Origin: Nymphaea colorata
Lineage: Eukaryota > Streptophyta > Magnoliopsida > Nymphaeales > Nymphaeaceae
Assembly (NCBI RefSeq): GCF_008831285.2
Contig: NC_045150.1
Coordinates: forward strand, 7,080,001 to 7,144,000
Direction of reading: 5' to 3'
DNA length: 64,000 nt
Part shown: piece after piece, positions 2,361 to 60,587 of the stretch
How positions within the stretch are numbered: the first letter of the stretch is position 1
Layout of the letters: every line of letters begins with the position of its first letter
Notes under the pieces: model-generated
Database searches by the model: none
The model's input: the letters and a program-made list of their open reading frames with translations, nothing else
What the model was told of the DNA's origin: nothing
Translations under genes and position numbers: made by a program

Positions 2361-5300
2361 GGAGACTCAAGTCCAGCCAAGCGAAGTTGTCCCTACCGGA
2401 CTCGGCTTTCTGCACGCATCCCCATTGAGTCATGATAACAAACCAAGTTGCTTCTGAGCTAATTAATTTTTTTTTTTGGCTCCACCCTCCATCACAATTG
2501 AGTAATGTCCACGTTCTTGTATCTTCGTGCCTCTTTATGACTTTTTTTTTTTTTTACGTATTTTTATCATTTCCCCGCTCCTTCTCTAGAGATTTATTTG
2601 TATTTTAATTGTAAAGAATATTTTGTTCTAGGTATAATGCCCATATTGTTGCAGTCGTTTATTTTAATTTTTTAACGGACATTTTATTGCATTTGCAAAT
2701 ACTTACTATGTACCGATGCCCCCTAACTTAAAGTTTGGCTTTAGCCTAAGATGCATTTCAGGCTAAATCCATTCTCAAACATATTAAACAACAAAAATTC
2801 ATCTAGGAAGTGAGCTTATCTAGCAGCTGACCCCGTGCCAACCCTGCTTTTCATAACCAAAACCTAGAGGGTCTGTTTTGATAGATCCCCCCTTTTATAG
2901 GAGACCCACTATATAAACAAACATTGAATTTTGCCGGTGTGAGAAAAAGAAGATCAGAGATCCTCATTTATAGTCAAGACCTCAATATTTGAAGCCGGAT
3001 GAGAGATGAGTCTGATCTTAAATTCATGGATTTGAGATTTTCAATGATCTCAAATCACCTTGAAGCTCAGATACAAAGTTGTCGAATGCCCTCCCTTAAG
3101 TGAAAAAAGGTGGGAGGCCACCAGCCTTGCCCCAAGGTTGGTGCCCTAACTTTGAGTCCATATTGCCAAGTCGAATGGACTAATTAATTTGGCTAATGTT
3201 GTTAGGGTAGCCGGCCGGCCAAAACCATATACAGTGATCGAACTTGGCGTTCAACGGACGAGCTATGTTGGCCAGCAACCGCGCACCAGTTTGGTGACCC
3301 AATGCCCGCAGGTAAAACGTTTACTCATGAATGGACCGACCACCATAAACACGTACCCGTTGATCATATGCCTTCCACCCCAATAGCACGACGTGAACCC
3401 ACCTGTTCTCCGGCTCGAACCATCTGATCCTCTTATTCTAGTAGCTACCAAGTGAAACATGGCAAATATTTCAAGAAAACTGGTAGAAGTTCATGAAAGT
3501 TGAAGCATTGGGACAATCTTGAGAGGTAATTGTGTATACGCTGAGCCACTTTTTGGGTGAGCAAGAAAAACATTTCATTCTATCGCTCAAAAAAAAAAAA
3601 GCTGAAGCTCATCTCCTCCAAACCTTTTGTTTTTTAGGGTAAAAGGTCTGCTTTCGGTGTTTTAAGATGTCGTTTTCTACTTTGCTTCAACTTGCAATTC
3701 AGTGACCCCCTATTTAGTATACAATGAAGTTTACATTCTAAGGGTTCATAATATGAACACGCTACCTACCAACTCAGGTCCAGAACGTTGTGCTAGTCTC
3801 TTTAAAAGCAATATGGCTTAGACCACTTATTCAAGGTGATATTAAATTTGACAACAAAGCCCTGAATCGTAGGTAGGGAAAAAAATGAAGAGGCGTGAGG
3901 AAAGGGCAGCTTAAGCTCTCACTCTTGTGTTGGCGGTAGAATTGATTGGAACATGAATAAGTTGCAAAATATAACTATGCTTTTGCTTAGGTATAACTAT
4001 TTTTTTTTATGTTATCATTACTTATTTTATCTTGCTCACTTACTTTCGACCAAGGCCATAAATGGGTATGAAATTCGGCAAGATACTGTCATTAAACCAG
4101 AGGAAAAAGAAGAATTCTAATGTCTTTGCCTTTTTTACTGGTTCGTCCGTTATGGCGATAATGCAGCCGTTGGATTTGCCAAGGGATTTAATTTCTCAAC
4201 GCTTTCAACGTTACCATTGTTTATTCAAACCGTCCATCAATATTTCACACGAAGAATAAATGGAATAACTGAATACATCTCACCTTCTCCATCCGCATGG
4301 GTACCAAAAAGTTTACCGTTGTCACTATCGACTCGTATCGGTTTTTGTGGTCCGATTTAGCTTACATTCGTTGGGTCAAATCGGCCTTACTTCTTACATT
4401 GCTTTCTTAAAAATAATTGCAGTCAATTCAACGTCATTGAAGAATCAATAGATGAATACATACATGAAAACTTTCATTGACACCAAAGCACGAAATTCAT
4501 AAAGGGGCGTCTCCGTGACTGACTCTTTTTGAGCTTCTACTCAATTCTTTTCATCCTTTAAAAAACTTGTTTTCGGTGTTTGGTGTAGTTTCTGCTATGC
4601 TTCAATTTACTTAATGATGATTCCTTTTTGTGGCAAAGGACGTCCCCATGACACCTTAGAAAAAACCAGTTTCATATAAAAATTTGTAAAGAAAAAGGGT
4701 TTTTAATGAGTTTTTAAAAAACAGTTTTGTATCCATATATATATATTTTTTGTAAATATTCTTTAGGAGATTCTTTCAAGAACAAGGTTTTCTTTGCATC
4801 ACCATTTTTTTGGGGTTAATAATCTCCAAGGAATCCAATTCTCTCTAAGCACGGTTTTTGGCGGCAACCTGGTTTTGGCCTATCATCTAAGCGCCTCCAC
4901 AAGTTTTTTCTCAAAAGCTTCATTCATGATATGAGATTTAGTTGCTGTATCTAAAGGTGAAACTTAGTTGACGTTTTCATATATAAAGATTACCCATTTG
5001 ACCAGCCAACACAAGCAGGGCAGAGCCAACAACAAGTAAAATTTTTAAAATTTAGATGTTTTTTTTAACAAAATTAAATTAAGGTGAGGCAGGGTCCATG
5101 CAGGCCCTACCTTGATTCCGTCCCTGCAAGTCAACACTCATCAATGAACAAATTTTTGACCAACATACCCATAGCAGTTTGTTTCAACAAAAAAACACAA
5201 GTAGTCCGAAACTTAGTGACTTTTACTTTCATCTTCACCACAATTTTAATCATCAACAAGCATTGACCAATCCACATTTAGGTCAGCTTTACTATCTCCC

Positions 5301-19591: not shown

Positions 19592-19852
19592 TTAACGGCC
19601 AAAATTGATGATCTCAGGATCAAACGACGGTACATAGAATGAATCGGACGCCGGGAAATCCCCGGAGGCAGCTGCAGATGTCCCGCAGAGAAGTCCCATT
19701 AGGGTGACGTAAGGTTCTCGACGGTCGCCGGCGGCATCATGGTGGTCGGTCGGAGGAGGCTTATAGTACATCCGGGCGGTCTGTGGGCAGTGGGAGTGGA
19801 AGCGAGCGGCGATCCTCACCCCCATGTCCAGCATCTCAACGTACCTCCCCAT
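19592..19852 (-). CDS. Small conserved plant protein, paralogue 1 (86 aa)
   Basis: An intronless 86-residue protein starting at the ATG whose complement is at 19850-19852. It is the first in-frame ATG, and its first 36 codons match the second paralogue at 25817 almost perfectly (Met10 here, Leu10 there). The N-terminal half ([11 protein letters not shown], then [17 protein letters not shown]) is compact and likely helical, with a Cys-Pro and Arg/His-rich core. The middle after KPPP is low complexity (His/Asp/Ala/Arg). The C terminus has SDSFYVPSFDPEIINFG. There is no signal peptide or membrane segment. I believe this N-terminal block is conserved across flowering plants as an uncharacterised small protein, but I cannot name the family or assign a function. 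Codon use is GC-rich compared with the AT-rich surroundings. The 5' leader of about 150 nt after the uORF contains no other ATG. Confidence 0.8.
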   Translation of the reverse strand: MGRYVEMLDMGVRIAARFHSHCPQTARMYYKPPPTDHHDAAGDRREPYVTLMGLLCGTSAAASGDFPASDSFYVPSFDPEIINFGR

Positions 19853-20003
19853 GTTCCCTTTCTTTTCTCTTCCTCCGATCGCTTGCTGTTGGATCTCCTG
19901 AATTTTGGTGTTTTTGGCTTCTTTTTCTCCTTTTCCTTCCCTTCCTCCCTGTTACAGGGAATGCAGAGAGAGGAAGAGAAAGAAAAAGGGGGAAACTGAT
20001 TTC

Positions 20004-20033
20004 TCAGAAGACGTCCCAAAGAGAAAATCCCAT
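20004..20033 (-). CDS. Nine-codon upstream ORF of paralogue 1 (uORF)
   Basis: On the minus strand ATG (20033-20031) to TGA (20006-20004) encodes MGFSLWDVF. The paralogue's leader at 26001-25972 encodes MGFFVWDVF with the same length and the same stop. The uORF is the only ATG between the putative TATA box and the main start. It ends 151 nt upstream of the main ATG. The leader outside this block differs strongly between the two paralogues. Peptide conservation is therefore suggested, and with it translational control of the downstream protein. Seven of nine residues are identical; codons 4 and 5 differ. Confidence 0.65.
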   Translation of the reverse strand: MGFSLWDVF

Positions 20034-20072
20034 GAAAGAAGGCTGGGACGAAGAAGATGGTGCGGAGTCCCC

Positions 20073-20079
20073 TATTTAA
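20073..20079 (-). promoter_or_regulatory. Putative TATA box of paralogue 1
   Basis: Minus strand TTAAATA within CGCCTTAAATAGGGG. It begins 40 nt upstream of the uORF ATG, so a start site about 30 nt downstream leaves only about ten nucleotides before the uORF. The second paralogue shows the same 40-nt spacing. Confidence 0.5.
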
Positions 20080-25607: not shown

Positions 25608-25817
25608 TCAAACGACGGTACAAAGAATGATATCGGAAGCCGGAAAATCCGTCGAGGCGGCTTTGCCGTGGTCGTCGGATTGGCGCCGGTCGCCGGCGGC
25701 GTCATGCTGCTCGGTGGGAGGGGGCTTGTAGTACATGCGGGCGGTCTGGGGGCAGTGGGAGTGGAAGCGAGCGGCGATCCTCACCCCCAAATCCAACATC
25801 TCCACGTACCTCCCCAT
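25608..25817 (-). CDS. Small conserved plant protein, paralogue 2 (69 aa, altered C terminus)
   Basis: The start (ATG complement at 25815-25817) is placed exactly as in paralogue 1, about 6 kb away on the same strand. The first 36 residues are identical except Leu for Met at position 10. The polar His/Asp/Ala/Arg stretch is similar, but the middle is shorter and different. Near the end both share (D)FPASD. Relative to paralogue 1 there is then one extra base (position 25631), so the frame ends in ILCTVV and a stop. In the other frame the DNA still matches the S-F-(Y/F)-V-P-S-F-D tail. Either this copy is losing its C terminus or a sequencing error added a base. The function is unknown, as for paralogue 1. 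The gene keeps a uORF, a TATA stretch and CGCG boxes, so transcription is probably maintained. Confidence 0.7.
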
Positions 25818-25971
25818 CTCGCTCTTCTCCCTGGTCTTGTTTTGGGTGTTATTGAATCTTTTACGGGCACGAGCGTCTCCTTTCTTCCGTTCCCCTTCTC
25901 TTTCCGATGTTCGCTAGGGAGACAGAGAAGAGAACGAGGAAGAAAGGGAGAGAACGGAGAAGATGGAAGGC

Positions 25972-26001
25972 TCAGAAGACGTCCCAAACGAAGAATCCCA
26001 T
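25972..26001 (-). CDS. Nine-codon upstream ORF of paralogue 2 (uORF)
   Basis: Minus strand ATG (26001-25999) to TGA (25974-25972) encodes MGFFVWDVF, against MGFSLWDVF upstream of paralogue 1. It is the only upstream ATG in the leader and ends 154 nt before the main ATG (151 nt in paralogue 1). The DNA block TTTGGGACGTCTTCTGAG is identical in both leaders while flanking leader sequence has diverged. A role as a cis-acting or start-proximal regulatory peptide is inferred. Confidence 0.65.
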   Translation of the reverse strand: MGFFVWDVF

Positions 26002-26040
26002 AAAGATGTGAGATGGAATTGGGAAGACGGAGGTGTTCCA

Positions 26041-26059
26041 TATATATATATATATATAG
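26041..26059 (-). promoter_or_regulatory. TATA-type promoter stretch of paralogue 2
   Basis: A TATATATATATATATATAT tract whose nearest edge lies 40 nt upstream of the uORF ATG. This is the same spacing as in paralogue 1. It serves as both microsatellite and probable TATA element. Confidence 0.45.
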
Positions 26060-27325: not shown

Positions 27326-27660
27326 CAAGTCTAATTGACAAAAACGTATATAGTAGCATACACACTCTATATAGATATACAGATATAAAGTACCATAGCT
27401 AGTCAAGTCTAATTGACAAAAACGTATATTGTAGCATACACACTCTATATATAGATATACAGATATAACGTATCATAGCTAGTCAGGTAAGAGGCACATA
27501 TCAGGTGTGACTTTCATTTGATTTCAGTGAGCGCTGATTTCCTTGTACACACGCACACACTCTACATAGACATAACTTAGCATAGCTAGTCATTTAGAAG
27601 GCACATATGAACATATCAGGTGCGTCTTTAATTTGATTTCAGTGAACGCTGTTTTCCTAA
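27326..27660. repeat. Nested tandem duplications (~81 bp and ~125 bp)
   Basis: AAGTCTAATTGACAAAAACGTATAT...CATAGCTAGTC is present twice in direct order (27329-27405 and 27406-27483). A second unit (CTCTATATAGATA...CATAGCTAGTCA...GGCACATAT...CAGGTG...TTGATTTCAGTGA(G/A)CGCTG) occurs at about 27441-27540 and 27562-27650. No coding potential. Confidence 0.65.
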
Positions 27661-43959: not shown

Positions 43960-45984
43960 ATGGCCACCAATGGCTCCCTGCGGTATGAATCAAGCACCGG
44001 TTACTTCTCAGTCCATGTCAAGAGCAGAGAGCTGGTCACTGCAGAGCTGCCATTTCCAGAGATCTGGCTGCCTCTCTCCAACCTTGACCTGCTGTTTCCT
44101 CCCATGGACTGTAGCATTTACTCCATATACAGGAAGCCCAGCAGCAAACCTGACCTTTCCTTTGGCTCGGCAGTTGAAATTCTCAAGAAGTCTCTTGCTA
44201 AGGTCCTAGTCCACTACTACCCACTTGCAGGTGAGATGGTCGCCAACTCCAGCGGTGAGCCGGAGATTCTGTGCAACAACATGGGCGTCGAGTTCATTGA
44301 AGCTCATGCAGAGATAGAGATCAGTGGTCTCAAGCTCCATGATCCCGACGCGACCGTGCAGGGAAAGCTTGTACCATCGAAGGGACGAGGAGTTCTCAGT
44401 GTTCAGGTGGAGCTCTTATCGTTCACATCAACCAGATCTCATCTCTTTTTTAACAGAAATTTCATGATTTGCACTTTAAAGTTTAATGAAGTAACTACTT
44501 TTTTTTCGTATTTTTCACGAGAACGTCAAAAAAATCGTTATTAAATTCAGAGACTTTGGTCTCACTAGTTTTTCCGTTGCATTCGGTTCCAGAGAATGTA
44601 TGTATAAAAGCCCCTTGCACAAGAATTTCTCAAAATAAAAGCTGGGCCTCTTCATCTTCTTGTGTTTTAAGGAAACAGAACTTTTATTATTTTAGATTTT
44701 GTGCTGTCATTTATTATTGTTCTGCATTTGTTATGAGACCAATTTGTATCCCCGAGTTTTGCAAGAAAAGCTAAGACTTCATACCTTTTGTCTCCAAGAT
44801 TTTTTTTTTCAGAGAATGGGATCTACTAATGGTTTTTTTCGAGACAGAGTTGTGTGCATTAGGCGTACATGCAACAAATATGCACAAAAGGGAAACATGA
44901 ATGGGTGGAGAGGAGCAAAGCTGGTTATATACGCAGTTCGTTATTTCACAATCTCATAAATATTTTATTATCTCAAAAAAATTATTTCATACTCTTGTTT
45001 AATGTTATTTCATACATTTGTCTGTTATCTTAAATTTTTTTTGTCATTTCATAAACTCATACATATATTTAGCATTATCTCATACATCTGTTTGTTATCT
45101 CATTATGTCACAAATCTTTTGTTGTCTCATACAGCGTATTTCATACTTATTTGTTATTTTGTACTTATTTGTTATCTCATGCATATGTATATGCAATCTT
45201 TGGACATAAAAATAAATATGCATAGATAATAGGGTTAACATCCGGCATATGCTTCTTATATACTTAGAACAGCCGCATGCAGAACTTGCATCCGAGGGGG
45301 AGTGGTTTAAAGTATTTTAGGAAATTTTTATAAGGAAATATACTTTGTAGTCGGTCCTCTTTTCTCTTTGGTCGAAAATTTTCCTTGGTCATTTTTTTGA
45401 ACCAGTGCTGACCGATCCAACTTATCAGTCCTCCTTCATTGGCCTAGCTTGATCGATTTTTCGAGGAAACTCACATGGATTTTCAATTAAAGTTATAACA
45501 AGTATAATTTTTTCTCTATAATGAAAGTAATTTCATGAACATACATATTATATATGTTAACTTTTAGATTCTTTCAGTTGTCATGCTGCTTTGTATGAAA
45601 AAACTCAGGTGTTCGATTATATAACAAAAAACTTTATGCAGATACCAAGAAACTTCACAAAAAGTTCTCGTCCTTGTCATCCACAATCAAAAGGTGATGA
45701 ATAGAGTGGATGCGGTTCTTTATATTTATGAACATATATGCCTTTATATTTATGAATATATGTGCTTCATCAATTGAAGAATAAATATCAAAACCATTTC
45801 TCAGTATCGTTGGCTGCCTCAATTAAGGTATCTAACACAAAAAATCATTACTTAGATTAGGCCTTGTTTGATAACCGTCGGACAGAGGATCTATCTCTTC
45901 TGATCTAAAATCAGACATTAAAAAATTCAGCGTTTGAGAAAGATGAGAATAACCGCCGGCCGGAGGATGGTGAATCTCTTTCTG

Positions 45985-46027
<43 letters not shown>

Positions 46028-47622
46028 AACGAGGCCTACAAGCCAAAGTTCATTTGATGCCATATTCTTCTCTCTTTTCTATTAAATGCTTGGCATGACT
46101 GAGGCTCTCTCTCTCTCTGATGAAGGTTTGTGGCAAATACTTATCTGATGACATCTCTCTCTTTCGTTGCATCACCCCCATAGTAATTTGTATCTTTTTC
46201 ACAAGAAAATGATGGATTGTTAGCATATTTTCTCTTTGGAGAATTGGGCATCGAAGCCCTCTGTTATTGAAGGAAAAGAGGGGATCCGGTGCTTTCTGGC
46301 CATAAACAGGGCTTCTATACCTTGTTTGGCTAGACGGTGCCGAAAAAAGAGGGCCCCAAATCCTTTCCGACTATCACCGAGGAACATGGCTCCGGCCTTT
46401 TGTCCATGATCTAGAGAAGAAAGGGAGTGTGAGATACTCGCAGGACATGCCAAGGGCGAGTCGTCTGGCACAGCAGGGATGAAAGCACAGCAGACTTTTC
46501 ACTCATGACTTCTCGTCAACGGAACATTCCTGTAATCCGTAGATTTCAATGATTGGGAATATATTGTTGTGCCATGCATCAAATGGGATCAAGATCCGTA
46601 GCTATCAATTGCCTTTTATTGATTTTTAGCTTCTCACACTTGATGGTTGAGCCTCTTGCTTGGAGCAGGTCACCAAGCTCATGTGCGAAGGCATCGTTGT
46701 TGCTTGCACTTCGGACCACCGGATCGGTGATGCCTACTCCATTGGCATGTTCATGGCTGCATGGGCTGAGGTCACCCGGACCAACTCCCTCGCTCTCATC
46801 CCCAACTTCCGTCGCTCTCTCCTCAGCCCACGCCACCCTGGATCGTACGACAAGTCCCTTGACAACATGTATGGGCCCATCGCATTCCTGAGCCCACCGC
46901 CCAAGCACGAGAGTACTTCGTCCGATCAATTCATCAGCCGGATCTATCATCTGAGCACAGGTGCCCTGAACCAACTCCAAGATCTTTCTTCCACAGATGG
47001 GACTAGGAGAACCAAGCTGGAGGCATTCAGCGCACTTCTATGGAAGCTGATGGCCAATGCCAGTGGTGATGCAGTGAGCAGCTGTCGTTTGGGCATCGTC
47101 GTCGACGGCCGGTCTCGCCTGAGCGAGGGCCCGAGATCGGCACTCTATGGATACTTTGGCAATGTTATCTCGATCCCCTTTGGGGAGGCTACCATTGAGG
47201 ACCTTAAGAGCAAGCCGCTGGGATGGGCCGCGAAGAAGGTGAACGAGTTTCTGGGTTTTGCCACCAACAGGGAGCACTTCCTGGGGCTGATTGACTATGT
47301 CGAAGGGCTGAGGCCTAACCCCATTATGACGAGGGTTTGCTATAGAGGGGCCGATGATGGGCCAGCTATTGTGGTCTCACATGCAAGAGTCTTGGATCCC
47401 TCTAAGATGGACTTTGGTTGGGGCCTTCCTTTCTTGACGTCCGTGCACTGCCCTTGGGAAGGGGATGCCAGATTTGTGCTGCTGCTTCCAAGCCCCCTAG
47501 GGAATGGAGACTGGGTTGTTTACATGCATCTGTTCAAGCACCAGCTTCACGAAATAGAGATGGGGGGAGGGGAAATACTTCAACCACTTACTTTCCAACA
47601 CCTCACCCCTCAAGAGGTTTGA
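43960..47622 (+). CDS. BAHD acyltransferase, HCT-like, two exons, intact (copy A)
   Basis: Exon 1 is 43960-44406 (149 codons), donor CAG|GTGGAG. Exon 2 is 46669-47622, acceptor GAGCAG|GTC. The intron falls at the usual BAHD position, after ...GVLSVQ and before VTKL, in phase 0. The product is 466 residues, close to the family norm of about 430-460. The catalytic HXXXD motif reads HRIGD (residues 166-170), and the structural DFGWG motif is at residues 397-401. BAHD enzymes move an acyl group from an acyl-CoA to a hydroxyl or amine in the cytosol, with the HXXXD His as general base. Overall sequence most resembles shikimate/quinate or spermidine hydroxycinnamoyltransferase-type members, but acceptor specificity cannot be read here. 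I chose the ATG at 43960 because the upstream in-frame ATG precedes the TATA box. The 2.26-kb intron contains a dispersed element. It is the only intact member of a local tandem cluster; the other two copies are broken. Confidence 0.9.
44790..45260. repeat. TATCTCATA-rich dispersed element, copy 2, in the BAHD intron
   Basis: Matches 29270-29740 in order and orientation (TTTGTCTCCAAGATTTTT, GTTGTGTGCATTAGGCGTACATGCAACAAATATGCACA, repeated ATCTCATA). It lies within the intron of the intact acyltransferase gene, away from the splice sites. Confidence 0.6.
45261..46668. other. Rest of the BAHD copy A intron
   Basis: It contains a (TC)n tract at 45987-46024 and a GC-richer stretch at 46230-46470 with no recognisable similarity. 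The last 110 bp (TGCCATGCATCAAATGGGA...CTTGGAGCAG) are conserved before the decayed exon 2 of copy C at 53006. Confidence 0.6.
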
Positions 47623-52719: not shown

Positions 52720-54136
52720 AAGGCCGGCAGATTTTTGAAACACTTTTTAAAGTGTTAATGTTTCCAAACACCCATACAGGGACATGAAATCCACTGTTTT
52801 CATGTCAAATGGGACCGGAGGTCAAGATCCTTAGCTATCAAATACCCTTTTTTTCTTAATTTTATGAAAAATTAATCTTTATTTCTAAAATGTCTCAAAA
52901 TGAATTTCTTAGCTTCACTTGCGCGTTGCTGTATGGAATTTAACATTTTTTTAGCATCTCTTGTTGCATCTCACACTTGATGGTTGAGCCTCTTGCTTGG
53001 AGCAGGTCACCAAGCTCATGTTAGAAGGCATCGTTGTTGCTTGCAAATGGGACCACTGGATTGGTGATGCCTACTCCTTCGGCATGTTCATGGCCGCATG
53101 GGCTGAGGTCTCTCGGACCAACTCACTCACTCTCGTCCCCAATTTCCGTCACTCTCTCCTCAGCCCACGCCATCCTGGGTCCTACGCTAGACAACATGTA
53201 CGTGCCCATGGCATCCCTGAGCCCGCCGCCCAAGCACGAGGGTACTTCATCGGATCAATCCAGCAGCCGGATCTATCATTTGAGCGCGAGCACCCTGAAC
53301 CAACTCCAAGATCTTCTTCCACTGATGGGACTACGAAAACCAAGCTGGAGGCATTCAGCACATTTCTATGGAAGTTGATGGCCAATGCCAGTGGTGATGC
53401 GGAGAGCTGCTGTCGAATGGGCATCGTCGTCGATGGCCGGTCTCGCTTGAAAGAGGGCCCGAGATCGGCACTATACGGATACTTTGGTAATGTTATCTCG
53501 ATCCCATTTGGGGAGGCCACCGTCGAGGACCTGAAGAGCAAGCTGTTGGGATGGGCTGCGAAGAAGGTGAACAAGCTTCTGGTTTATGCCACCAACAGGG
53601 AGCACTTTCAGGGGCTGATTGACTATGTCGAAGGGCAAAAGCCTAACCCCATGATGACAAGGGTCTACTACAGAGGGGCCGACGATGGGCCGGCCATTGT
53701 GGTGTCACATGCAAGAGTGTTGGATCCCTCCAAGATGGACTTTGGTTGGGGTCTTCCTTTTTTGATGTCCGGGCACTTCTCTTGGGGAAGGGATGCCAGA
53801 TTTGTGCTGCTGCTGCCAAGCCCCCTAGGGAATGGAGACTGGGTTGTTTACATGCATCTATTCAGGCACCAGCTTCACAAAATAGAGATGGCCAGATGGG
53901 GAAGGGGGAATACTTCAACCTCTTACTTTCCAATACCTCACCCCTCAAGAGGTTTGGGAAGAAGTGAAATAGAGATGGGGGAAGGGGGATACTTCAACCT
54001 CTTACTTCACCCCTCAACAGGTTTGAGAAGAAGTGAAATGGAGATGGGGAAGGGGAATACTTCAACCTCTTACTTTCCAACACCTCACCCCTCAAGAGGT
54101 TTGAGAAGAAGGAAGCACGCCAAAGATTGGCAATAG
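52720..54136 (+). pseudogene. BAHD copy C: exon 2 with frameshifts and an extended tail
   Basis: Intron-end sequence and the acceptor GAGCAG|GTC lead into an exon 2 (53006-54136) that is open throughout. HWIGD (the HXXXD motif) and DFGWG are kept. Compared with copy A, 8 bases are missing near 53186 and 1 base near 53315. About 43 codons between them are read in the wrong frame, and the frame is then restored. The last ~80 codons are again out of frame and run through three copies of a ~70-bp repeat. No exon 1 is present upstream: promoter-like spacer P3 joins directly to intron-end sequence near 52700. A functional enzyme is very unlikely. Confidence 0.85.
53879..54111 (+). repeat. Tandem ~70-87-bp repeat at the 3' end of BAHD copy C
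   Basis: Units start at about 53879, 53966 and 54035 with (G/A)AAAT(A/G)GAGATGG and continue GGAAGGGG...TACTTCAACCTCTTACTT...CACCCCTCAA(G/C)AGGTTTG(G/A)GAAGAAG. Copy A has a single unit (47554-47632), so the expansion happened in copy C. Confidence 0.8.
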
Positions 54137-55304: not shown

Positions 55305-58300
55305 TTATCGATCGATCCCTTCGATCCTGTCTTCAACGTCCGAGTAGAGCTGCCTCAGCCTCTCAAGGTTCTCCTCTGAGGTCTGCCAGTACCCACGCCC
55401 ATTGGCCTCCAAGAAGGTCTGCACCAATTTCCGGAAGGAGTTCGGGTTAGTGTTCATGAGCCTCTTGAGCATCTCCTCATCCTCAATGAATGTGGAGTTG
55501 GCTTCTTCGTAGACCCAGTTGTCCACCTGACCAGATGTGGCGCTCCAGCCCACTGTGTTAGTCAACCGCTTCTCTATCTCCCTGACTCCTTCGTACCCAC
55601 TTGCTAACATTCCTTCATACCATTTTGGATTCAGAAGCTTGGTCCTCGCATCCAACCTCACTGTCTCGGCCAATGTTCTGACCTGTGCATTTGCAGTAGT
55701 GGTATCAGCGATGTAGGCATTTGGTTTCTTGCCGTCCTTGCGCAAGTTCTGCACCAGGTTAGTGGGGTCTGAGTCGAAGTAATGGCTGACATCTGTGAGC
55801 GAGATCTCAGATGAATCCAGGTTTTGAAATGTGGCTTCTGCAGTGCTGAGTGCCATTTCGAACACCTTGCGCTTCTCCATCATGCCGATCCCAGGCGCAT
55901 CCGAGTCGAAAGCAAAGGACTTACGGCTCAAGTACATGTCTTGAAGCTGCTTCTCATCATTCCATGATGAGTTTTCTACTGCAAGATTGACATTTGAGGA
56001 GTATGAACCAGAAGCGTTGGAGAAGACCCGTGTGGCAGCCTCACGAATGCTGACACCAAGTTCTTTTGCCTGCTCAGCTGCATGTTTCCTTACATAGTTC
56101 ATATCCTCTGGTTCATCAAGCTCAGCTACCAACTTCACAGCACGGTCCAAAAGATTCATCTGCAGGAATCAGAAAAAAAAAACGAAAGAAAAAAAGAAAG
56201 AATTATCATCTAGGATGATGAACATCTGATTTCTATTCATCGGATGATTTTGATTGGGCAACAGGAAACAATAAAGAGCGGTGTTCAGCCAGCTTTTGAA
56301 GTTGAAGGTTTTCTAGAAACAAAAAGGAATCCCAAATTTCCAACATCTAAAGATAATGAGTTGGAGTGCTTCAATTAAGAGTTAGCTCTTCTAGTTTACC
56401 TGATTAATGAACAGGTCCCTGAAAACTCCAGAGCAGTTGACTACGACATCAATCCTGGGGCGACCAAGCTCTTCAAGGCTTACAGGTTCAACCTTGTTCA
56501 CCCTGCCAAAAGTGTCTGCAACAGGTCTTACACCAACCATCCACATCACTTGAGCTAGTGATTCACCATAAGTTTTTATGTTATCTGTTCCCCACAAAAC
56601 CAGTGCAACTGTTTCGGGGTACTTGCCACCATTGTCAGCCTTCTGCCTCTCGAGCAGACGATCAACCACAATCTTAGCACTCTCCAGAGCTGCAGCAGTT
56701 GGAATTGCCTGTGGGTCAAGAGCATGGATGTTCTTCCCAGTAGGCAAGACCTTAGGATTCCTTATGGGGTCACCACCTGGTCCAGGCTCAACATAGCTGC
56801 CTTCAAGTGCTTGTTTAAGACTTCCAAGCTCATTATCAGCCACAACCAGCCTCAGACACTCTCCCAAGTATGTGAATAGTGTCCTCAGTTGTTCTTTATC
56901 AGCATTTAGAAACCTGGTTTTGTAAAGATACTGGACCCATGGCTCCATCAAACCAAAACCAAACATTGTTCCAAGTTTTTCTGCAACATCGACAACCTGG
57001 CCACGCTTGTTTGTGGTCCGGTCAACAAAGGCAGATATAGCTCCTCGAGAAGCTTCTGTAATCTGGCGAAGGAGCTCAACATCATCCAGAATTCCCTTGT
57101 CATTTCCTCTGTAAATGTCCTGGATGTCTCTGTTGATTGACTCGGCTAGTATTGAGGGTAAAGACCGTATTCCTTCTTCCGCTCTGTCCAGGGAGGCAAT
57201 GTTAACAAGTGTTGCAACAGCTTCCATGGCAGAAGGTGGCTCTCCAATAACGTGCAAACCACAGGGTAACAGCCTAGACTCAATCTCCATAATCTTGCGG
57301 TAAATGTTGCCAACCACAAGATCTCTCTCATCAGATGACAGCTGAGTACCTGCTCAAAAATAAGTTTGTTGGTTATTGCAAAAGAAATTTGATAGAAAGA
57401 ACAATCATATTATATTCACATAAGAAGTTTCGTAGATTTCAAACTAACAATCACCAATTCTTGCCGTCTGTGTTCTTAAAAAGTGAACACAGCTTAGAGA
57501 CTCCAACAAAAACAGGGAAATCGAATACAACCAATACTTTCCTGAAGTAGAGCAACATCAGTAACTTTAGAATTTCATTAACTTGCAACATGTATTTCAA
57601 AATGATGTATCATGACAAAATCGATAGATTCAAGTCCTTTTACATTCCATACTGCTAGATGTTTCTCGTTGAGTCTATAGACTATTTTTTTCTTTTTTCA
57701 CTGCAGGGCTATAAATATAACCAAATCCAAATTAATATGTTACTTGACGTCCTACATGTGAAGAAATTCTGCGAAAACATGTTATTTCTAGCATGTTAAA
57801 AACTGAGAGCAGATGTCAATTCAACTTGGGAAACAGCATTAAGCAAGCAAGGTTGGATAAATCTCAAAAATTAAGATCACTAAAGTTTACCTTCGTCAGG
57901 CAGGCTCACATCCTTGTCAAGATTGCACTGCTTGGCAGTGCTAATAATGCTGTTTATAATCTGCTCGCCACGACCGGTGTCCTTGAGGCTCTGGTACGAG
58001 GAGATAAGTTCACTTAACTGCTTCAGACCCTTGTACAGCCCAGCATTTTCTGCTGGTGGGGTGAGGTAACTAATGGTGTTGGCATAGCTACGTCTCTTGG
58101 CAATGGTGGCTTCAGATGGATTGTTTGCAGCATAATAGTATATGTTTGGGATGTTACCAATCAGACTGTCAGGGTAGCAGACATCACTCATCCCCACTTG
58201 CTTTCCAGGCATAAATTCAAGTGAACCATGTGTTCCAAAGTGCAGAACTGCATCAGCCTTGAAAATCTTTTCGACAAATGAATAATAGGCAGCAAATCCA

Positions 58301-60587
58301 TGATGTGGGCTTGCTGATTTTGAAAAGAGAAGGCGCATGGGGTCACCTTCGTAGCCAAAAGTGGGTTGGACACCAATAAACACATTGCCATACTGTTTTC
58401 CATAGACTAGCAGGTTTTCCCCATCAGAGTTGAGGTTCCCTGGTGGTTTTCCCCAGCTGTCCTCCAGGGCTTTTGCATAAGGAGTCAGCTGCTGGTACTC
58501 CCTAATGTTCATCTTGTAAGCAATGTTGAGGTTTGGACTACTAAATTTTGCTTCTTTGTCATGAATTACATCCTCAACGAGAGCTTCTGCTGTTTCTGGC
58601 AAGCCATCAACATGGTAACCATCTTTCTTCAAGTCTTTGAGAACACTAAAGATGGAAGAAAACACATTGAGATATGCCGCTGTCCCTACATTTCCTTTGT
58701 CTGGAGGAAAGCTGAACACAGTGATGGCGATCTTCTTTTCCTCCTGCACACGTTGGACGCACAAATTAAACATTTGCCTGACTAAAAACACCATCACTCT
58801 GTTCATGTATTGTCACATCGATATGTCTTGAAGAGCTTGAAATTTGCCAATTACTCAACATACTACCTCCAAAAGAAAAAATAACAACCTTAATGAACCA
58901 CAAAGGATTCAATTTAAAAGCTAAACAAACGACAGATAAAAGGCATGTATGAAAAGAAGAAAACAAGGAAGTCTCCCCAGTAAGCCAAATACCTTTGATT
59001 TTCTTTTCAGTTCTGCCCATCTAATGGCTCTAGTGCAGAGCTGCTCCACCCTCTTGTGAAGAGCATGGGACTTGCCTATTGAGTTACCATGTTCAAAATA
59101 GAATCAGTATATCATAAAAGGAAACATGCAATGGGTGGAAAGTACTGCTTTCAGAGCCAGCAATCACCTGTTCTGCCATCACGACCAGAGAAAACAATTG
59201 GTTCCAGTCCACCATCGAGTTCAGGAAGCGCAACTTGAAGAGCCACTTGAATTGGGTGCAGCCCCAAAGTGCTCGCAAGCCATTCCTCTGTTGTCTGAAA
59301 AACCAAGGGGAGCGCAACAATGTAGGGGACATCCAATTTCCTCAGTGCCTCAATGGCCTTGGGGTGATCCTGCCGGGCAGGGCCACCGACAAGTGCAAAA
59401 CCAGTGAGCGAAACAACTGCATGAACAAATGGCTTCTTTGTGATGGGATCCACTAAAAATTTCTCTGCTGGGGCTGAGAAGTCCAATCCCCCTGCAAAGA
59501 TTGGTATCACCTTCGCTCCCCTAGCTTCCAATTCCATGATCACTGCAACATAGTGACTCTCATCTCCTGTCACAATGTGGCTTCTCTGCAGTATCAGGCC
59601 TATCACCGGCGTATTCGGGTCCTTGATCTTCATGTTCACGGCATCCTTCCTTGTTCCATACCAGTTCAGATACTCCTTTACGTCAGAGTACATACAGGGT
59701 GCCATTGGGTGCCAAATTCCGCTATCTAGGAAGACCACTGGTTCCGAATAGTCCATTTTCACATCCTTCAGTGCCGGAACATAGGAACCGGAGATCATCT
59801 TGAGGAAATTCTCAAGATTATCCGGCGACCCACCAAGCCAGAATTGCAGGCTCAGTATATAGAGCCTTGCATCACGAGCTTTGTCACTTGGCAGATACTT
59901 GAGCACCTTGGGCAGCGTCCGGACCAATTTCAGCATGCTATCGGCGAACCCGGCGGACTGCTTCTTCTTCTTAAACAGCTGAAAGAAGGGGCTCTTGGAT
60001 TGGCCGAGCTGGGACATACTAAAAGACCCCAGTTTGTTCAGCCTCATGACTTCAGGCATAGAAGGGAAGACCAGAACAGCATCAAGCCTGTCCCTCTCCT
60101 TCTCCACCGCCGCCTTCACCTTTTGAGCGAGCTCCTCGACGAAGATGAGCGATCCGATGAAGATGTTAGCGTCAGAGAGATCCTTGCAGAAGGTCTGGTA
60201 CGTAGACTCGCTCCTGAGTTCCTCCACCAGATACCCAACGACTTCAAACGCCGCATCTCTGTCCTTGCTGTTTAGGTTCCTGACTGCAGCAGTGAGTGCG
60301 GATTGGTACTGGGCCTCAAGCACCACATAGACGACCTTCACTCTGGGAAGTCCATTGTTGTTCCTCTCTGGTAGAATTCTCCTCACCTCAGGTGTGGTCT
60401 GAGTGAACAAGCCATTGCCCAGCATGGTACACCTTATGTTGCCCATTCTAGGAGTAGGCCTGACCTGCCCAAACCTTTCATTCTGTAAAAGAGGGGAACC
60501 GAAAGTAGTTCTGAAGAGGTTGGAGAAGGAAGCATGGCGTGGGTGCCTAGAGGAGAGTATGAAGTGAGACTGAACCACAGATGCCAT
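55305..60587 (-). CDS. CHLH: Magnesium chelatase subunit H (CHLH/GUN5), five exons, complete
   Basis: Exons on the minus strand: 60587-59168, 59075-58993, 58743-57891, 57349-56400 and 56159-55305. All introns are GT...AG with consistent phases (1, 0, 1, 0). The sum is 4161 nt, 1386 residues, against about 1380 in other angiosperms. CHLH is the porphyrin-binding catalytic subunit that, with CHLI and CHLD, inserts Mg into protoporphyrin IX in the plastid; it also takes part in GUN5 plastid-to-nucleus signalling. The Ser/Arg-rich N terminus (about residues 1-50) is a chloroplast transit peptide. The N-terminal CHLH domain follows (from about residue 75). The CobN/Mg-chelatase domain fills most of the remainder and includes [13 protein letters not shown] (from residue 669), [38 protein letters not shown] and [10 protein letters not shown]. 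The last residues EDRIEGIDR match the plant C terminus. No frameshift or premature stop is seen. It is the best supported gene in the window. Confidence 0.98.

Follow-up and report, generated by a model that had tools for sequence, protein, structure and literature searches.

A short upstream open reading frame (uORF) of nine codons precedes two paralogous genes on the minus strand of the window (the whole stretch of 64,000 nt analysed here, which lies on contig C13 of the genome), and a uORF with the same start and in-frame stop was found in all three intact family members detected in the genome, on two contigs. The first-pass annotation had described a peptide-conserved uORF shared by the two leaders of the window; the retained nine-codon uORF is real and recurs in the one further intact paralogue that was detected, but conservation of the peptide as an entity is not supported. 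The constraint appears, from a plain comparison of the three sequences, to act at the nucleotide level in TTTGGGACGTCT, together with a kept ATG, frame and stop. The explanation favoured here, with confidence evenly divided between acceptance and doubt, is that the uORF acts as a leaky, cap-proximal attenuator of main ORF translation.

Table 1. Features of the two gene copies in the window (uATG, start codon of the uORF)
Feature	Copy	Position	Strand	Remarks
uORF, MGFSLWDVF then stop	1	20004..20033	-	sequence, pattern search
uORF, MGFFVWDVF then stop	2	25972..26001	-	sequence, pattern search
17-nt core TTTGGGACGTCTTCTGA	1	20004..20020	-	contains palindrome GACGTC
17-nt core	2	25972..25988	-	identical to copy 1
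Main ORF, 86 aa	1	19592..19852	-	last 16 residues in a different frame from the paralogues
Main ORF, 69 aa	2	25608..25817	-	
TATA-like box TTAAATAG	1	20072..20079	-	46 nt before uATG; putative role
TATA repeat	2	26039..26058	-	begins 57 nt before uATG; putative role
Leader, uORF stop to main ATG, 151 nt	1	19853..20003	-	pyrimidine-rich, then purine-rich; predicted long hairpin
Leader, uORF stop to main ATG, 154 nt	2	25818..25971	-	pyrimidine-rich, then purine-rich; predicted long hairpin

The coordinates, strand, peptides and stops of the two window uORFs, as well as the gaps of 151 and 154 nt between the uORF stop and the main ATG, had been given exactly, as re-reading of the sequence confirmed. 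The claim that the leader has diverged around a conserved block is also borne out: in ungapped comparison, copies 1 and 2 are identical at 26 of 30 nt in the block; the figures are 7/30 for the preceding and 16/30 for the following 30 nt. Block identity is 25–26/30 across the three pairs of copies, while only 1–4 of the 10 nt on each side are identical in these pairs, and the block limits are the ATG and the TGA. Dinucleotide shuffling of the leaders (the span from 15 nt before the uATG to the main ATG) gave no 30-mer match as good as the observed one in 500 shuffles for each of the three pairs, the best shuffles reaching 22, 23 and 22 of 30. The uORF pattern ATGGGNTTYNNNNNNTGGGAYGTNTTYTRR, of which ATG-N12-TGGGAYGTNNNNTRR is a looser form, matched twice in the window, and the search of the genome (407.8 Mb, 783 contigs) returned the same two places alone, with none for the reversed control. 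An in-frame extension upstream of the uATG was considered and rejected, the open stretches there being unlike one another.

The family census consisted of two protein searches of the genome, made with a tool that scores its best candidates only; these yielded both genes of the window, an intact gene on contig C9, two related, strongly matching stretches on contig C1 and one match on contig C5 at E = 1.41. The intact C9 gene (copy 3) carries the uORF ATGAGATTGTCTGTTTGGGACGTCTCCTGA, which encodes MRLSVWDVS followed by a stop, has nine codons and lies 115 nt before the main ATG. The C1 relatives are without first codons, unlike sequence stands where the leader would be, and they have no uORF; the genome search for the 17-mer core with up to 2 mismatches gave no match beside them. 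The two stretches, both 5'-truncated and related to the C9 gene (C1:2133569 and C1:2213253), lie about 80 kb apart and have similar upstream sequence.

The main protein of copy 3 has 78 aa, and copies 2 and 3 both end in IILCTVV. The 86 aa given earlier as the length of the protein turned out to be peculiar to copy 1, where a 1-nt frame difference close to the 3' end produces it, compared with 69 and 78 aa in copies 2 and 3. The difference falls at 19592–19640 (minus strand), where the DNA is still conserved (D5 repeat, 90%), and it reflects a frameshift of recent date or else an error of the assembly. Over their first 37 codons, the main ORFs have diverged with dS of 0.45, 1.46 and 0.75 (pairs 1-2, 1-3 and 2-3) and dN of 0.035–0.059. 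Searches with main ORF copies 1 and 2 revealed no Pfam family at E up to 10 and none in NCBIfam; a PDB search with the main protein of copy 1 gave a single chain at E 0.4, and this protein had no relative in viral_contigs or genome_contigs. The main ORF is a putative relative of At1g70780, which belongs to group 12 of the conserved plant uORF genes discussed below.

Elsewhere in the window, two acyltransferase ORFs of family PF02458 (Transferase) are neighbours (46681–47622 and 53018–54136, plus strand); the second has a repetitive C-terminal tail, and the ORF at 43960–44544 looks related to them. A magnesium chelatase large-subunit gene occupies 55305–60587 (minus strand); two of its ORFs contain PF02514 and one contains PF11965. 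Short local direct repeats with units of 46–62 nt, spaced 78–115 nt, are clustered at 27326–27658.

TATA-like boxes stand before the uATG at −46 in copy 1, −57 to −45 in copy 2 and −43 in copy 3. The usual spacing between a TATA box and the RNA start is about 30–35 nt; this rule, combined with YR dinucleotides picked by eye, predicts RNA starts about 11, 13 and 12 nt before the uATGs of copies 1, 2 and 3, with alternatives of 19 and 8 nt in copy 2. Given the predicted start, both the ATG and the stop of the uORF lie inside the 5' leader; a start at least 12 nt later than predicted would leave the uATG outside the RNA. The uATG had been called the only ATG of its leader, which is correct for the span between the predicted RNA start and the main ATG; 40 nt farther upstream, the TATA repeat of copy 2 contains another ATG (26041). 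The promoters of the three copies have a GC-rich motif, GCGTGG(A/C)CGCG, in common, about 120–160 nt upstream of the uATGs.

All three uATGs have T at −3, a weak context, and at the main ATGs position −3 is A or G and position +4 is G. A long hairpin is predicted downstream of the uORF stop in all three copies. Leaders that are pyrimidine-rich and then purine-rich are common in plants, and the folding energy of the whole leader is distinct from that of shuffles in copy 3 alone (z −2.82, compared with −0.53 in copy 1 and −0.30 in copy 2), so the hairpin is weak evidence. A Rfam scan of 901 bases of copy 1 gave 33 matches at E up to 1, none of which reached the gathering score; these sub-threshold matches comprised 31 miRNA-precursor models, most of them over the hairpin, and two lncRNA models.

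Under the attenuator reading, transcription would start about 11–13 nt upstream of the uATG, and a fraction of the scanning ribosomes would initiate at this codon in its weak context, perhaps aided by the downstream pyrimidine/purine hairpin. These ribosomes would read the nine codons and terminate, and some of them would take up scanning again over the 115–154 nt to the main ATG in its strong context; the outcome would be a lowered and buffered output of a small (~70–80 aa) protein of unknown function. The start, the length, the stop and the W-D-V codons are kept in the three copies, and the nucleotides of TTTGGGACGTCT are kept as such. The retention of the start, the nine codons and the in-frame stop in 3/3 copies, despite a main-ORF dS of 0.45–1.46, argues for this reading, and a substitution pattern unlike that of a protein-coding stretch argues against it. 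According to the accessible text of a yeast study, the effect was not always the predicted one when the cap distance was altered in four uORFs, and earlier work cited there found cap-proximal starts to be often skipped; therefore, weak context and cap proximity together may leave the uATG mostly unused.

The substitution pattern was followed over the three copies, in which 24 of the 30 block columns are invariant. The variable columns are distributed over the first, second and third codon positions as 2/2/2 in the uORF versus 4/1/17 over codons 1–37 of the main ORF, although none of the tests fell below 0.05 (Fisher p = 0.064 for third versus first plus second positions, p = 0.17 for third alone, p = 0.09 for first plus second alone). 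Nei–Gojobori counts of synonymous and nonsynonymous differences in the uORF are 2 and 2 for pair 1-2, 0 and 4 for pair 1-3, and 1 and 4 for pair 2-3. Copies 1 and 2 alone fit peptide selection (dN 0.095, dS 0.635), but copy 3, with 4 nonsynonymous and 0–1 synonymous differences, does not (dN 0.208, dS 0.233 for pair 2-3). At main-ORF rates, pair 1-3 would be expected to show 3.4 synonymous and 1.2 nonsynonymous differences, while 0 (P 0.006) and 4 (P 0.034) were observed; the corresponding P values are 0.22 and 0.016 for pair 2-3 and 0.79 and 0.17 for pair 1-2, and all of them are only rough, since the pairs share history and the sites are few. The first-pass annotation had named equal divergence of synonymous and nonsynonymous sites as grounds for rejecting its own claim, and the lack of a third-position bias weakens the peptide claim accordingly, with the little power that nine codons give. 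The residues invariant over the three copies are only M, W6, D7, V8 and the stop; the supposedly unchanged WDVF end is kept in copies 1 and 2, but its final F is not invariant, because copy 3 reads WDVS.

An overlapping frame, which reads LGRL in all three copies, shows about the same degree of conservation as WDV. It was rejected as a coding frame in its own right: the ATG-started ORFs listed for it in copies 1 and 2 run from points upstream of the predicted RNA start into the main ORF, where they end. The comparable conservation of the two frames, the invariance of TTTGGGACGTCT, the even 2/2/2 distribution and the departure of pair 1-3 from main-ORF rates all point in the direction of a promoter-proximal DNA element, a possible if somewhat doubtful reading, in which a transcription-factor site or a downstream core-promoter element would stand at a more or less constant spacing from the TATA box and the ATG and TGA would be incidental or secondary. 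The palindrome GACGTC, which we take to be a candidate ACGT-core, C-box-like bZIP site, is invariant in 3/3 copies and is found 64, 63–75 and 61 nt downstream of the point where the TATA-like boxes begin. The 17-nt core of copy 3 differs from that of copies 1 and 2 by one T/C difference, and TTTGGGACGTCTYCTGA, the form of the core used in the genome search, has three exact matches, all in leaders of this gene family.

The same search, when up to 2 mismatches were allowed, found 36 + 53 = 89 places, compared with 41 + 45 = 86 for the reversed control; there is no genome-wide excess, and the 17-mer in this form is therefore not a widespread element. One genome match with a single mismatch showed no resemblance to the uORF gene in the stretches compared. 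Within the window, up to 3 mismatches gave 2 matches, and 6 of 100 shuffles, a weaker control, gave at least 2. The shorter core GGGACGTC has a third window occurrence at 4639–4646 (minus strand), outside the gene family, with 0.45 expected. Besides the lack of excess, two observations speak against the DNA element: the pair 1-2 counts do not depart from main-ORF rates, and both limits of the conserved block coincide with those of an ATG-to-stop unit in each of the three copies. It is the main rival of the attenuator, and it accounts better for the nucleotide constraint but not for the ATG and in-frame TGA bounds in all three copies; its claim is a tentative one.

Another reading, which seems unlikely, is peptide-dependent arrest, a mechanistic form of the first-pass reading, in which the nascent W-D-V-(F/S) would halt the ribosome on the stop codon, perhaps together with a small molecule, and block scanning to the main ATG. 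The invariant residues W6, D7 and V8 lie close to the stop, and there is a precedent in the six-codon uORF MAGDIS, with an Asp two places before the last residue and then a branched residue. The MAGDIS uORF is situated close to the cap. At the same time, of the eight residues that follow M, five vary among the three paralogues, the change of F9 to S included; the likeness of Asp-Val to Asp-Ile comprises two residues and may be due to chance, and the W-D-V codons are not independent evidence for the peptide, because they overlap the invariant DNA core. It is the invariant W-D-V near the stop, as in MAGDIS, that keeps arrest under consideration. The accessible text of the papers on mammalian AdoMetDC (AMD1) describes the stalling of ribosomes at the stop of this uORF in response to polyamines (PMC4505036, PMC11900008), and that tiny uORF (also PMC9648851) resembles the one found here in being very short and in having an Asp and a branched residue before the last codon. 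The peptide, the main protein and the kingdom all differ, however, and the likeness is an analogy only; it is quite improbable that the family possesses a plant counterpart of MAGDIS, a cap-proximal nine-codon uORF whose terminal W-D-V-x would hold up the terminating ribosome when a metabolite is sensed and which would have been too short for discovery in the first Arabidopsis–rice screen. Least of all is it to be expected that the block has no function and survived by chance since the duplication, an idea for which the small sample of three sequences from one genome speaks, but which the diverged flanks, the 25–26/30 identity in three pairs and the 0/500 shuffles per pair contradict.

Retention of a short leader ORF in duplicate genes, with start, length and stop kept, is a feature that the attenuator candidate shares with the conserved peptide uORFs (CPuORFs) of plants, for which the first Arabidopsis–rice screen, by Hayden and Jorgensen (2007), reported 26 groups; some CPuORF main ORFs are also of unknown function, as the accessible text indicates (PMC2075485). 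Unlike CPuORFs, the uORF here has nine codons and is without an excess of synonymous changes over the three copies. CPuORF homology group 12 (CPuORF29) likewise comprises two paralogous genes (At1g70780/At1g23150) with a uORF and a protein described as of unknown function by Jorgensen and Dorantes-Acosta (2012; PMC3426882), and the ESUCA paper places it among the sequence-dependent regulators (PMC7106846), in both cases according to the accessible text. As a match for the uORF itself, the group 12 CPuORF was rejected, since Table 6 of PMC2075485 gives 39–51 aa for the uORFs of this group versus nine codons here. Literature searches by sequence string, with most subscription papers and figures outside their coverage, found no printed WDVF uORF, and the peptide strings matched only wheat dwarf virus papers.

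Two points follow for the study of such leaders. The conservation of a uORF-shaped block can be one of nucleotides, which became visible here only with a third paralogue. As far as the accessible text of PMC2075485 goes, the first Arabidopsis–rice screen was blind to ORFs shorter than 20 aa, which would have escaped detection (the shortest in its Table 6 has 17), and the presence of a nine-codon uORF in every intact family member found suggests that very short ones may have been missed.
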